Program-made: the position numbers and the translations under genes
The notes under the pieces: generated by a model
Database searches by the model: none
What the model was told of the DNA's origin: nothing
What the model saw: only the letters and a program-made list of their open reading frames with translations
In this document: piece after piece, positions 1-13,497 of the stretch
Layout: the number at the start of each line of letters is the position of its first letter
Numbering within the stretch: the stretch's first letter is position 1
Assembly (NCBI RefSeq): GCF_003011885.1
Contig: NZ_PXXO01000001.1
Span: 1-64,000 of the forward strand
From: Cyanobium usitatum str. Tous
Lineage (GTDB): Bacteria > Cyanobacteriota > Cyanobacteriia > PCC-6307 > Cyanobiaceae
Reading direction: 5' to 3'
DNA: 64,000 nt

Positions 1-13
1 GCTGCTTGATATT

Positions 14-253
14 TCATTCGTCAGGTGCTCGAACATTTTGGTGTAGTTTAGCATTGGCAATGGTGCTCAGGAGTTTAGTGTTTTTGGTGTGGCGTTGCTG
101 CTCTAGGGTCTTGATTGTGCCTGTTACCTCCACCCGCCGCTGAATCAGTTGGTCGGCATTGAGGTCAGCAAGGTGGGGGAATGGGTCTGGTGCCTCTGGC
201 GGCAGGGTCTTGAGAACCCGCTGAAGGTCAGACCGTGAGATCGGTGGTGTCAT
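14..253 (-). CDS. Small hypothetical protein, probably truncated by a nonsense codon
   Basis: A 79-residue product of unknown function. Residues about 46-78 (IKTLEQQRH, LLST, VRAPDE) align with the larger protein at 7260-7661 (IKTLEQERH, LLST, VRAPGGW). The codon-by-codon match continues past the stop: the other copy reads A-P-G-G-W-V-L-K-Q, this one A-P-D-E-stop-N-I-K-Q, so the TGA replaces a TGG Trp codon. The gene therefore looks like a C-terminally truncated paralogue whose old reading frame runs off the left edge of the window. Its ATG overlaps the stop of the upstream RHH gene by 4 bp (ATGA), an arrangement common in toxin-antitoxin operons, but no toxin family is recognised. Confidence 0.5.
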   Translation of the reverse strand: MTPPISRSDLQRVLKTLPPEAPDPFPHLADLNADQLIQRRVEVTGTIKTLEQQRHTKNTKLLSTIANAKLHQNVRAPDE

Positions 254-447
254 CAGTCATTTTTGATTGCACCCTCATTCACCAAGCGGTTGTAGTGACA
301 CTGAATGGCGTCCTCCACGATGGAAGCGAGGGTGATGGATTGATTGGTGCGTTGGCGGTGATGCTGGATTTCAGAGACCAGTTTCATCGTCTCCTCACTG
401 AGGCGGATTCCAAATTGTTTTGGAGCATCGGGATGGTCGTATGCCAT
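253..447 (-). CDS. Ribbon-helix-helix (CopG-like) small DNA-binding protein, candidate antitoxin
   Basis: 64 residues from ATG at 447. After a short N-terminal HPDAPKQ stretch, residues about 12-19 (FGIRLSEE) look like the RHH beta-strand. Two helices follow, ending in a segment (ASIVEDAIQCHYNRLV) typical of RHH helix 2. RHH proteins bind operators as dimers and often act as antitoxins. It is translationally coupled to the 79-residue gene downstream (4 bp overlap). The N-terminal segment PKQFGIRLSEETM recurs in a pseudogene at 12667-12742 and, more diverged, at the start of the protein at 12789-13250. A longer start inside the upstream open frame is possible but lacks family support. Confidence 0.7.
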   Translation of the reverse strand: MAYDHPDAPKQFGIRLSEETMKLVSEIQHHRQRTNQSITLASIVEDAIQCHYNRLVNEGAIKND

Positions 448-517
448 TTCTGCTGGGGCGTATGGGTGAAGTGTGGCAGGGGATTCCGCCAGCACCAGCA
501 GGGATAAGGAAGAGCAT
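395..517 (-). other. Possible leader ORF overlapping the RHH start
   Basis: A 40-codon frame starts at ATG 517, crosses the RHH start at 447 and stops at 395 in another frame. Aligning the duplicated upstream regions (518-634 and 990-1107) places this ATG at the same distance from the -10 box as the start codon of the 644-991 gene. It could be a leader peptide or a relic start left by module shuffling. There is no protein-level support. Confidence 0.2.
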
Positions 518-634
518 CGGATGGAACCTCTGTGGGTTTCAGGAATGGGTTGAGAGGGGCGAACTGCTATGAGTTTCTTGCCCCTCAACGCTGAAATTAT
601 AGCACTATACCAGCAAGATGTGGTGCTTAGTGCT
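518..634 (-). promoter_or_regulatory. Duplicated promoter region (copy 1)
   Basis: This stretch aligns with 990-1107. On the minus strand it carries a consensus -10 box TATAAT (596-601) preceded by TGC, and further upstream the conserved motif GCACTAaGCAcCA. It probably drives the RHH operon. The two copies keep the -10 to ATG spacing within one base (79 and 78 nt). Confidence 0.5.
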
Positions 635-643
635 TGAAAGTCG

Positions 644-991
644 TTAAATCGCAACCAGTTCAGGCACCTCCTGCGATGCCGCCACCTCCAGAGCAACCGC
701 ATCAAGCATCTGATCGGTAACTGAGCGGTGGGTAGTGGGGGTCAGGTCACCAAAGCGGGCAGTGAGTGCCTGGGAGAACAGATTCGTGAACTCGGTGCTG
801 ATCGTGGTGGAAAGCAGGTCAGCAGCAAATGCCCAGTGCTGAATCATTGAGGCAGCACTGAGGTTTCCGCCCGCAGCAGCATCAGCAGAATCCTGTTCCC
901 ACTGGCAGCAGCGGTCACGAAGAGCAGCAACCATCACGCCCTGGGCAGCATTGAGGGTCGCAAGGTCAATGTTGGAGAAATCGGTCGGCAT
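644..991 (-). CDS. Hypothetical protein, 115 aa
   Basis: Unrecognised, mostly helical, Ala- and Thr-rich protein without a signal peptide or membrane span. The start at ATG 991 is supported by AGAGGA about 9 nt upstream. It is followed by the RHH operon on the same strand but has its own copy of the duplicated promoter region, so it is probably expressed in parallel with that operon. The ORF is intact. No function can be assigned. Confidence 0.55.
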   Translation of the reverse strand: MPTDFSNIDLATLNAAQGVMVAALRDRCCQWEQDSADAAAGGNLSAASMIQHWAFAADLLSTTISTEFTNLFSQALTARFGDLTPTTHRSVTDQMLDAVALEVAASQEVPELVAI

Positions 992-1107
992 GGGTCTGAT
1001 CCTCTTTGGGATTCTGGAGTGGGTTGAGATGGCGGGTTTCTAATGAACCTCTTGCCTTCACCGCAGTAATCATAGCATATGGAACTGAGTATGATGCGTA
1101 GTGCGCT
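990..1107 (-). promoter_or_regulatory. Duplicated promoter region (copy 2)
   Basis: Homologous to 518-634. The minus-strand -10 is TATGAT (1069-1074) with a TGC extension, and the upstream motif GCACTAcGCAtCA matches copy 1. It precedes the 644-991 gene by about 78 nt. Conservation of the two motifs despite drift elsewhere suggests function. Confidence 0.45.
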
Positions 1108-1203
1108 TTTGGATTGCGGAATGTTCCGTTGAGTTCTGCTGTGTGTATCGCTACGGCATCGTTTCCAATTTGCTTTAGAAATGGGGTCGTAAGCGGAGTC
1201 GGT

Positions 1204-1293
1204 ATGGTCGCAACTGGTTTCCCATCACTTCTTGCCTTAGTCGCCCTGGTGGGGTTTGTCGTGGTTCAAGCAGTGCTTAGGTTTGGTGCCTAA
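1204..1293 (+). CDS. 29-residue single-span membrane micropeptide (copy 1)
   Basis: ATG to TAA, 29 codons. The product has a short N-terminus, a hydrophobic core (PSLLALVALVGFVVV) long enough for one membrane span, and the C-terminal tail VLRFGA. The paralogue at 13408-13497 has the same length and shares PSLL, VALVG, VV, VL and FGA; the differences are conservative (R/K, F/L, A/V). The 90 bp upstream are also conserved, including GCGGAGTCGGT directly before ATG. Length conservation and conservative substitutions argue for a real peptide. Type I toxins such as TisB are similar in size, as are small photosynthetic subunits, but no family match is claimed. Confidence 0.6.
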   Translation: MVATGFPSLLALVALVGFVVVQAVLRFGA

Positions 1294-1353
1294 TACTCTG
1301 CTCTCTGTGTCAGGCACGGGAGCATAGGCAGAAAGTACTGCTTTGCCCTGTTA

Positions 1354-1375
1354 AGGCACTTGAGGTATTGTGCCT
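1354..1375. promoter_or_regulatory. Inverted repeat upstream of the XRE gene, candidate operator
   Basis: AGGCAC (1354-1359) and GTGCCT (1370-1375) form a perfect 6 bp inverted repeat with a 10 nt spacer, four bases before ATG 1379. A further AGGCAC lies at 1312-1317, and AAGGCACTTG (1353-1362) recurs inside the gene at 1409-1418. The position suits autoregulation by the XRE protein. The site is inferred from symmetry only. Confidence 0.4.
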
Positions 1376-1378
1376 CTT

Positions 1379-1630
1379 ATGGCAAAGCAAGTTCGTCTGA
1401 CCCTCGCCAAGGCACTTGCCAAGGCAAATCTGCGTAGGGCAGAGGCGGGTGAGAAGGCAATCACGATGAATGGTCTGGCAGTGGCGGCAGGAGTAGCGGC
1501 AACGACCATCACCCGACTGGCACGGAACGATCAGAAGGCGGCATCAGCACTGTCATTGGATTTGGCATCCAAGATTGTGACGGTGCTGGATTGTGGGATT
1601 GAGGATCTGTTGGAGGTTGTTGAGGCGTAA
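1379..1630 (+). CDS. XRE/Cro-family HTH transcriptional regulator
   Basis: An 83-residue single-domain protein. The segment ITMNGLAVAAGVAATTITRLAR (about residues 29-50) is a helix-turn-helix of the Cro/C1 type, and the C-terminal helix VLDCGIEDLLEVVEA is the usual last helix of the fold. It probably represses its own promoter through the inverted repeat at 1354-1375. ATG 1379 is preferred over GTG 1370 because GTG lies within the operator arm. The gene converges on the nuclease gene at 1640 with only 9 nt between the stops. Confidence 0.75.
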   Translation: MAKQVRLTLAKALAKANLRRAEAGEKAITMNGLAVAAGVAATTITRLARNDQKAASALSLDLASKIVTVLDCGIEDLLEVVEA

Positions 1631-12755: not shown

Positions 12756-12796
12756 TTGCCTGATAGAGCCAAGCAGGCTATGGCTCTATCAGGCAA
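12756..12796 (-). terminator. Perfect 16-bp inverted repeat at the end of the 12789 gene
   Basis: TTGCCTGATAGAGCCA (12756-12771) and its exact complement (12781-12796) flank a 9-nt loop. It overlaps the last codons of the minus-strand gene, so it probably ends or protects that transcript; there is no T run. Confidence 0.45.
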
Positions 12797-13250
12797 ATCG
12801 TGACACCTGCCATTCGGCATTGCCTTTGCTTTGCGTAAGATGAATGATGTTTTCAAAATCTTTCTCGTCCCGCCATTTGAGTTCAGCATTAATGCTAATA
12901 TTGTCAGGCGTAATATTATTATTTAGGCTTAAGTGTTCTGCTGCAAATTCCAATATTTTTAATGCCTGGGGTAGCTGGGAGAGCCATCGGTGATGCTTGT
13001 TTTCGTATTTTATCTCAATTGCAATATGCTCAATCGCAGCATTTAGCGCAGTTGGGTCGTCAATTAATTCCTCTTTGCTTTGAGTGCCATCGCCGCAAAT
13101 ATTGATATAGAAGTATATGCTTCCTTTGATTGCAGGTGCTTTTAGGATGCTATCGCTACCAATTTTGGTAAGTAGTTCCCTATGCTCTTCAACCGTCTCC
13201 TCGCCAAGGCGACTGCCTAACTGCTTTGGAGAGCCTGGCTGTTCGTTCAT
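12789..13250 (-). CDS. Hypothetical protein with RHH-family N-terminal module
   Basis: 153 residues. The first 20 (MNEQPGSPKQLGSRLGEETV) are homologous to the start of the RHH protein at 253-447, and about 35 bp of 5' leader DNA are shared too. The rest is unrelated: an AT-rich, Ile/Asn-rich domain without a signal peptide. This looks like a chimera in which a common 5' module was joined to a new C-terminal domain. Function unknown. Confidence 0.55.
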   Translation of the reverse strand: MNEQPGSPKQLGSRLGEETVEEHRELLTKIGSDSILKAPAIKGSIYFYINICGDGTQSKEELIDDPTALNAAIEHIAIEIKYENKHHRWLSQLPQALKILEFAAEHLSLNNNITPDNISINAELKWRDEKDFENIIHLTQSKGNAEWQVSRFA

Positions 13251-13407
13251 AACCGCTGGATCGTGTGGTTGTAGTGTGGCAGGGCATGGAGGGTTGCCAG
13301 GTCAAGGGAGGAGAAGCCTGCGGAATGTTCAACTGGTTTCCGCTGTATATATCGCTACGGCGCTCTTATGAATTTGCTTTAGAAAGGATGAATTCAGCGG
13401 AGTCGGT

Positions 13408-13497
13408 ATGGATTTCTCTGGTTCGCCCTCGCTTCTTGTCTTTGTCGCCCTAGTGGGGCTTTTAGTTGTCGAAGTGGTTCTCAAGTTTGGCGCCTGA
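13408..13497 (+). CDS. 29-residue single-span membrane micropeptide (copy 2)
   Basis: ATG to TGA, the same 29 codons as 1204-1293. It begins MDFSGSPSLLVFVALVGLL and continues VVEVVLKFGA. Compared with copy 1 it keeps hydrophobicity, the basic residue before FGA, and the position of every structural element, while many codons differ synonymously or conservatively. The upstream 90 bp (13317-13407) also align with 1115-1203. Divergent from the 12789 gene, as copy 1 is from the 644 gene. Confidence 0.6.
   Translation: MDFSGSPSLLVFVALVGLLVVEVVLKFGA

Follow-up and report, generated by a model that had tools for sequence, protein, structure and literature searches.

A single-helix micropeptide family with a common tandem-repeat promoter box in Cyanobiaceae

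The window analysed here, a stretch of 64,000 nucleotides from Cyanobium usitatum str. Tous, contains two very short open reading frames that a first-pass annotation described as copies of a 29-residue membrane micropeptide. Are such frames genes at all, what does the conserved DNA ahead of them do, and is the product a toxin or a part of a membrane complex?

Results

Two related frames and their copies in the genome

Both frames translate exactly as the annotation had it. Copy 1 (1204..1293, plus strand) encodes the 29-aa peptide MVATGFPSLLALVALVGFVVVQAVLRFGA and copy 2 (13408..13497, plus strand) the 29-aa peptide MDFSGSPSLLVFVALVGLLVVEVVLKFGA, with hydropathy maxima of 2.46 (19 residues) and 2.73, respectively. 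The assignment of copy 1 draws on its translation, a further copy on contig C22, homologues and purifying selection, and that of copy 2 on its translation, synteny and the Pfam families of its neighbours. When the window was compared with itself using BLASTN, positions 1115-1291 aligned with 13319-13495 (74.9% over 179 bp), and the E value of 8e-15 means that the likeness is not due to chance. The alignment spans the upstream DNA reported as conserved, and GCGGAGTCGGT-ATG is found at both copies, as are Shine-Dalgarno-like GGAG motifs (1195..1198 and 13399..13402, both on the plus strand). Each copy is indeed divergent from a minus-strand gene, at 644-991 for copy 1 and 12789-13250 for copy 2, and these two genes are unrelated to one another. 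Past the stop codon of copy 1, a hairpin-like repeat without a T-run (1299-1324, TGCTC...GAGCA) shows matching changes on both arms in two other loci (L002 and L030).

Searching the whole genome (2.5 Mb in 25 contigs), we found four family members, two of them beyond the window. The peptide at C22:171947-172030 shares 28 of 29 residues with copy 1, differing in the last residue alone, and its gene is embedded in about 790 bp of DNA that is 87% identical to window positions 845-1629. Identity between the two segments was 96% in the peptide gene and 95% in the promoter box and leader (see below) vs. 75-77% in the flanking noncoding DNA, and the constraint is therefore local to promoter and peptide. 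The fourth member, at C9:33592-33666, encodes a shorter form, MRVPSLLALAALVGFVIVELVL, which we call type A.

The neighborhoods of the members vary between genera. Copy 2 lies near cbiB-ilvC-clpP, as judged by the Pfam families of its neighbours, and has no codirectional gene nearby; three other genomes (G005, G006, and G013) have a member at the same place, which is occupied in genera g1, g19, and g68 and must hence be old. At copy-1 type loci, minus-strand genes of 79, 64, and 115 aa are followed by the micropeptide and a gene for a Cro/C1-type helix-turn-helix (HTH) protein. In the window the 115-aa gene (644..991, minus strand) has no assigned family, and the HTH protein of 83 aa (1379..1630, plus strand; Pfam HTH_26, E 1e-6) is encoded 3' of the micropeptide, an arrangement found at loci of this type only. 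Micropeptide and HTH gene are paired at seven loci, including one from genus g10; because the other loci lack the HTH gene, we place it outside the core function. This small-gene module is duplicated, at window positions 1-1630 and at the end of contig C22 (genome G000); it stands at contig ends and resembles a repeated island cassette. Beyond it, on the minus strand at 1640-2710, lies an isolated gene encoding a type I restriction HsdR N-terminal (PD-(D/E)XK) domain.

In eight genomes, type A stands 5' of a gene of about 240 aa and a gene that reads as glutamine synthetase III-like. The ~240-aa protein, which is conserved and encoded directly 3' of type A and convergent with the glutamine synthetase III-like gene (L101, L104, L107, L109, L114, L115, L119, and L120), has no Pfam or NCBIfam family. 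In genus g6, two fairly dissimilar forms, MPQSTSLLALVGVVGFALISLLLGVLP and MARPSSLLAIMALIGLAMVELVTRLLAWA, occur at one locus, and this common locus supports their homology. A role as a leader peptide was rejected, given the varying neighbours and the isolation of copy 2.

Distribution in Cyanobiaceae

The annotation had proposed a homologue search among cyanobacterial genomes. Among same-genus genomes, 13 of 15 contained one to four copies, the other two being incomplete assemblies. Profiles extended the family stepwise, through other Cyanobiaceae genera to marine Synechococcus-type genera. At E <= 0.05, members were present in 121 of the 271 Cyanobiaceae genomes, which represent at least 16 of the 34 sampled genera, and marine Synechococcus reached six copies per genome. 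The hosts are freshwater Cyanobium and Synechococcus as well as marine Synechococcus, and named relatives with the family include Synechococcus sp. CS-1330, CS-1331, and 8F6 and Cyanobium sp. FACHB-13342 and T1B-Tous. The homology between marine and freshwater members is carried by about 20 columns and the common box.

Among 195 genomes sampled at class level, no credible member was found outside Cyanobiaceae, the few matches there sitting within long frames. Seven non-Cyanobiaceae matches (L019, L023, L025, L026, L139, L140, and L142) were rejected for this reason, and L022 for want of a nearby start codon. Profile A4 matched eight loci in genome contigs, seven of them picocyanobacterial and the eighth, in a Halieaceae metagenome-assembled genome (L080), probably a chance match. 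The small genomes of genus g18 gave no micropeptide match. For the peptide, nothing scored above threshold in viral contigs, phage records, and PHROGs or in Pfam, NCBIfam, and Rfam, and searches of the open-access literature on small cyanobacterial proteins, the peptide strings, and picocyanobacterial toxin-antitoxin systems turned up no description of it. The many-copy family is so far unnamed and is without a Pfam, NCBIfam, or PHROGs model.

Selection on the peptide

Another proposed check, the ratio of nonsynonymous to synonymous change, gave values well below one in every group. Pooled Nei-Gojobori dN/dS was 0.27 for type B (12 sequences), 0.12 for type A (5 sequences), 0.16 for g6 (9 sequences), 0.34 for g54 (3 sequences), and 0.07 for the marine members (11 sequences), for which synonymous sites were near saturation. 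Differences between family genes are concentrated at third codon positions, and within a group the peptide length is constant, apart from type A with its two lengths. The frames of the family are selected protein genes, as follows from dN/dS of 0.07-0.34, lengths fixed within clades, and some loci being syntenic between genera. Together with the lack of a family model, these results support the original claim of a duplicated, uncatalogued membrane micropeptide with conserved upstream DNA.

Family members are 22-33 residues long and follow the core pattern SLLA(x4)LxGFxVVExxL. In an alignment of 25 sequences, Leu-10 and Gly-17 were kept in all 25 and Leu-9 nearly so, while position 22, late in the helix, was usually Glu or Gln; in the main g6 form this position is Ser. 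Many members have a basic residue near the C-terminus, and the net charge is near zero. The 19-residue hydropathy maximum was 1.75-2.75 in all members tested, and the family thus combines the short conserved frame, the purifying selection, and the one helix expected of a single-pass membrane microprotein.

A tandem-repeat box upstream

The element common to the genera is a 21-bp tandem repeat with a period of 11 bp, CTThAGATTyn-CTTTAGAwTT. We anchored 55 protein-selected loci on CTTWA alone; exactly 11 bp before it, the first half-site appeared with C in 45, T in 48, and T in 37 of the 55 loci, followed by further bases G (44/55), A (42/55), T (45/55), and T (49/55). Allowing two mismatches, the box was found within 110 nt upstream of 17 of 40 members selected by the protein profile and in none of 240 control windows; with three mismatches, the counts were 24 of 40 and 1 of 240. 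The second half holds a −10-like hexamer (TATGAT, TAGAAA, or TAGGAT) 20-46 nt before most starts, and the start codon follows at a set distance past the box. The box was absent at seven loci (L273, L276, L284, L286, L297, L298, and L299).

Pattern search and column composition placed the predicted box of copy 1 at 1162..1183 (plus strand), with the first half TTTCCAATTTG and the second half CTTTAGAAATG containing the −10-like TAGAAA, and that of copy 2 at 13366..13387 (plus strand; TTATGAATTTG-CTTTAGAAAGG); in the window copies the second half is kept and the first is degenerate. An extra element lies further upstream, at 1144..1156 in copy 1 (TGTATCGCTACGG) and 13348..13360 in copy 2 (TATATCGCTACGG), both on the plus strand. 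It is present in type B, in homologues within the genus, and in genus g82; six genome sites match TGTATCGCTACGG within one mismatch, three of them at micropeptide genes, and exact TTTGCTTTAGAAA occurs in the genome at the three type-B copies only. The predicted leader is about 15-40 nt long, and the Shine-Dalgarno sequence is accessible in the window copies. Marine members (L267-L306) have a tiny leader hairpin, GGGCTxxGCCC, with TTGG/CCAA in one clade.

Judging from these sequence patterns, the most fitting reading of the conserved ~90 bp is a promoter with a putative regulator site, not the target of an antisense RNA. Each family gene seems to be transcribed by itself and from a promoter of its own, and the box common to most members suggests a common regulatory signal. 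Tandem repeats with an 11-bp period are the site architecture of OmpR/PhoB-type regulators. RpaA, SphR, or a sigma factor as the reader of the box would be guesses.

The box before other genes

In 20 genomes, the box pattern gave about 50 matches vs. about 9 in a reversed control, and the box was also found before small genes in smaller-genome relatives. It occurs 5' of a 60-aa gene with the motif GLYDxxGxLRF, between CYTH-domain and metF-like genes, in many genera including g18 (L197-L200, L203, L219, L229, L237, L241, and L309), and, in genomes of the marine Synechococcus type, 5' of genes with DUF3104 and Nif11 domains (L225, L227, L230, and L231; L243 and L246). In reversed orientation it separates trxB from gene X, which is small and conserved (L207-L212, L222, L235, and L236); in g18 it stands directly 5' of gene X (L310 and L315), and a box-like site lies ahead of a 42-aa gene (MVIIEWLLNGKRSREVVSLREAK...; L307 and L308), which psbA adjoins in L308. 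A box before kaiB (L216) overlaps the kaiB start codon and may be due to chance, and we discarded one-mismatch matches inside coding genes of the AT-rich g18 (L311-L313, L316, and L317).

Tentatively, and at slightly less than even odds, we propose that the box defines an undescribed Cyanobiaceae regulon, in which an 11-bp tandem repeat over the −10 would be read by a response regulator or a particular holoenzyme and would control mainly overlooked microproteins, the single-helix family foremost.

Discussion

What the peptide does has to be judged against several alternatives. Its size and topology, together with its near-universal presence in several Cyanobiaceae genera, would suit a core subunit like PsaM or PetN, present in stoichiometric amounts in a photosynthetic complex and peculiar to picocyanobacteria. 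Against this, the copy number varies from one to six, the inspected loci lie outside photosynthesis gene clusters, genus g18 is without a match, profile A6 matched no PDB chain, and Pfam, NCBIfam, and PDB gave no relation to a known small subunit of the photosystems, b6f, or NDH; we consider such a subunit unlikely. Type I toxins such as TisB, Ibs, and Hok are hydrophobic peptides of about 20-50 aa that may be multicopy, and the first-pass annotation had offered a toxin of this kind as one possible role, for which repression by an antisense or leader RNA and maintenance of the copies by addiction would be expected. The family resembles these toxins in its 22-33 aa, one hydrophobic helix (the hydropathy maxima given above), and several paralogues, and one locus type has an HTH gene paired with the peptide. 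However, the leader is short rather than long and structured, with the predicted −10 at 20-46 nt from most starts and the Shine-Dalgarno sequence accessible, and no promoter-like (sigma-70-like) site was found on the minus strand at either window locus. The family is also present in nearly all members of whole genera, in part at syntenic loci, instead of sporadically; the peptides have a conserved acidic residue and a net charge near zero, ordinary genes such as those for Nif11 and DUF3104 proteins have the box as well, and most loci are without the HTH gene. The toxin proposal fared badly on these grounds and is very unlikely.

More improbable still is a dual-function or purely regulatory RNA, with the small RNA as the conserved unit and the peptide incidental or secondary: the marine leader hairpin, with an apparent compensatory change, and the 3' hairpin at copies of the W1 type agree with it, but dN/dS well below one, fixed length, and synonymous drift within the frame argue for the protein, and Rfam gave no match. 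The least probable of the alternatives is a type II-like pair, in which the micropeptide and the adjacent Cro/C1 HTH protein would act as toxin and antitoxin or as signal peptide and receptor regulator. The pairing is conserved at seven loci, including one in g10, and the HTH protein matches HTH_26; yet a constant two-gene operon is not seen, as no such gene accompanies copy 2, type A, or nearly all of the other loci, and the peptide is equally constrained there. A published toxin-antitoxin study of Synechococcus CB0101 reported type II systems only (PMC5498466).

We favour, with a probability of roughly 0.55, a family of one-helix Cyanobiaceae peptides that are expressed from tandem-repeat promoters and serve as inducible accessories or modulators of a membrane complex. 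Homology, purifying selection, fixed lengths, the common box, and conserved synteny were observed, and from them we infer the remaining steps. A regulator of tandem sites, of OmpR/PhoB-type architecture, or a special holoenzyme would control the box and through it induce the peptide, which would insert in the thylakoid or plasma membrane. There the glycine face and the Glu/Gln residue may dock it onto a larger membrane complex, which it would assist or modulate as CydX, PetN, and AcrZ do theirs, and the copies may have been duplicated for dosage or as condition-specific variants. As the neighbours vary by genus, the proposed accessory role rests on size, helix, the conserved polar residue, and analogy. 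Of the two roles proposed in the annotation, that of a small membrane-complex subunit or partner still seems the more plausible.

Marine Synechococcus and their freshwater relatives contribute much to primary production, and one to six copies of the gene are present in many genomes of these organisms. With the common box, a lone short frame becomes part of a putative regulon that can be tested, and a rule emerges for finding more missed small genes: a box, followed by a short frame within 50 nt.

Among known regulatory sites, the cyanobacterial Pho box, bound by SphR, consists of 8-bp CTTAACCT direct repeats with a 3-bp linker (PMC1906773), and HLR1, the site of RpaB, reads KTTACAWW-N2-KTTACAWW (PMC13421787). 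Our box resembles both in being a tandem direct repeat and shares with the Pho box the 11-bp period. Its repeat, CTThAGAT/CTTTAGAw, nevertheless departs from CTTAACCT, the unit CTTTAGAT agreeing with it at 5 of 8 bases, and the box overlaps the −10 and precedes, among the genes seen, no phosphate genes, unlike the Pho regulon; from HLR1 it differs in both unit and period.

Among known peptides, CydX, AcrZ, KdpF, and MgtS are single-pass peptides of about 30-50 aa that act on a large membrane protein. The micropeptide is likewise small and single-pass but differs from them in having no adjacent partner gene and no recognised sequence similarity. Cyanobacteria have single-helix small membrane proteins of their own, including PetN (29 aa), PsaM, PsbX, and HliC (reviewed in PMC5126843). 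The micropeptide is like these in its length, its one helix, and its falling under the usual limits of gene callers; it differs in having no PDB or Pfam match, in its several copies per genome, in its own tandem-repeat promoter, and in having been observed in Cyanobiaceae alone.
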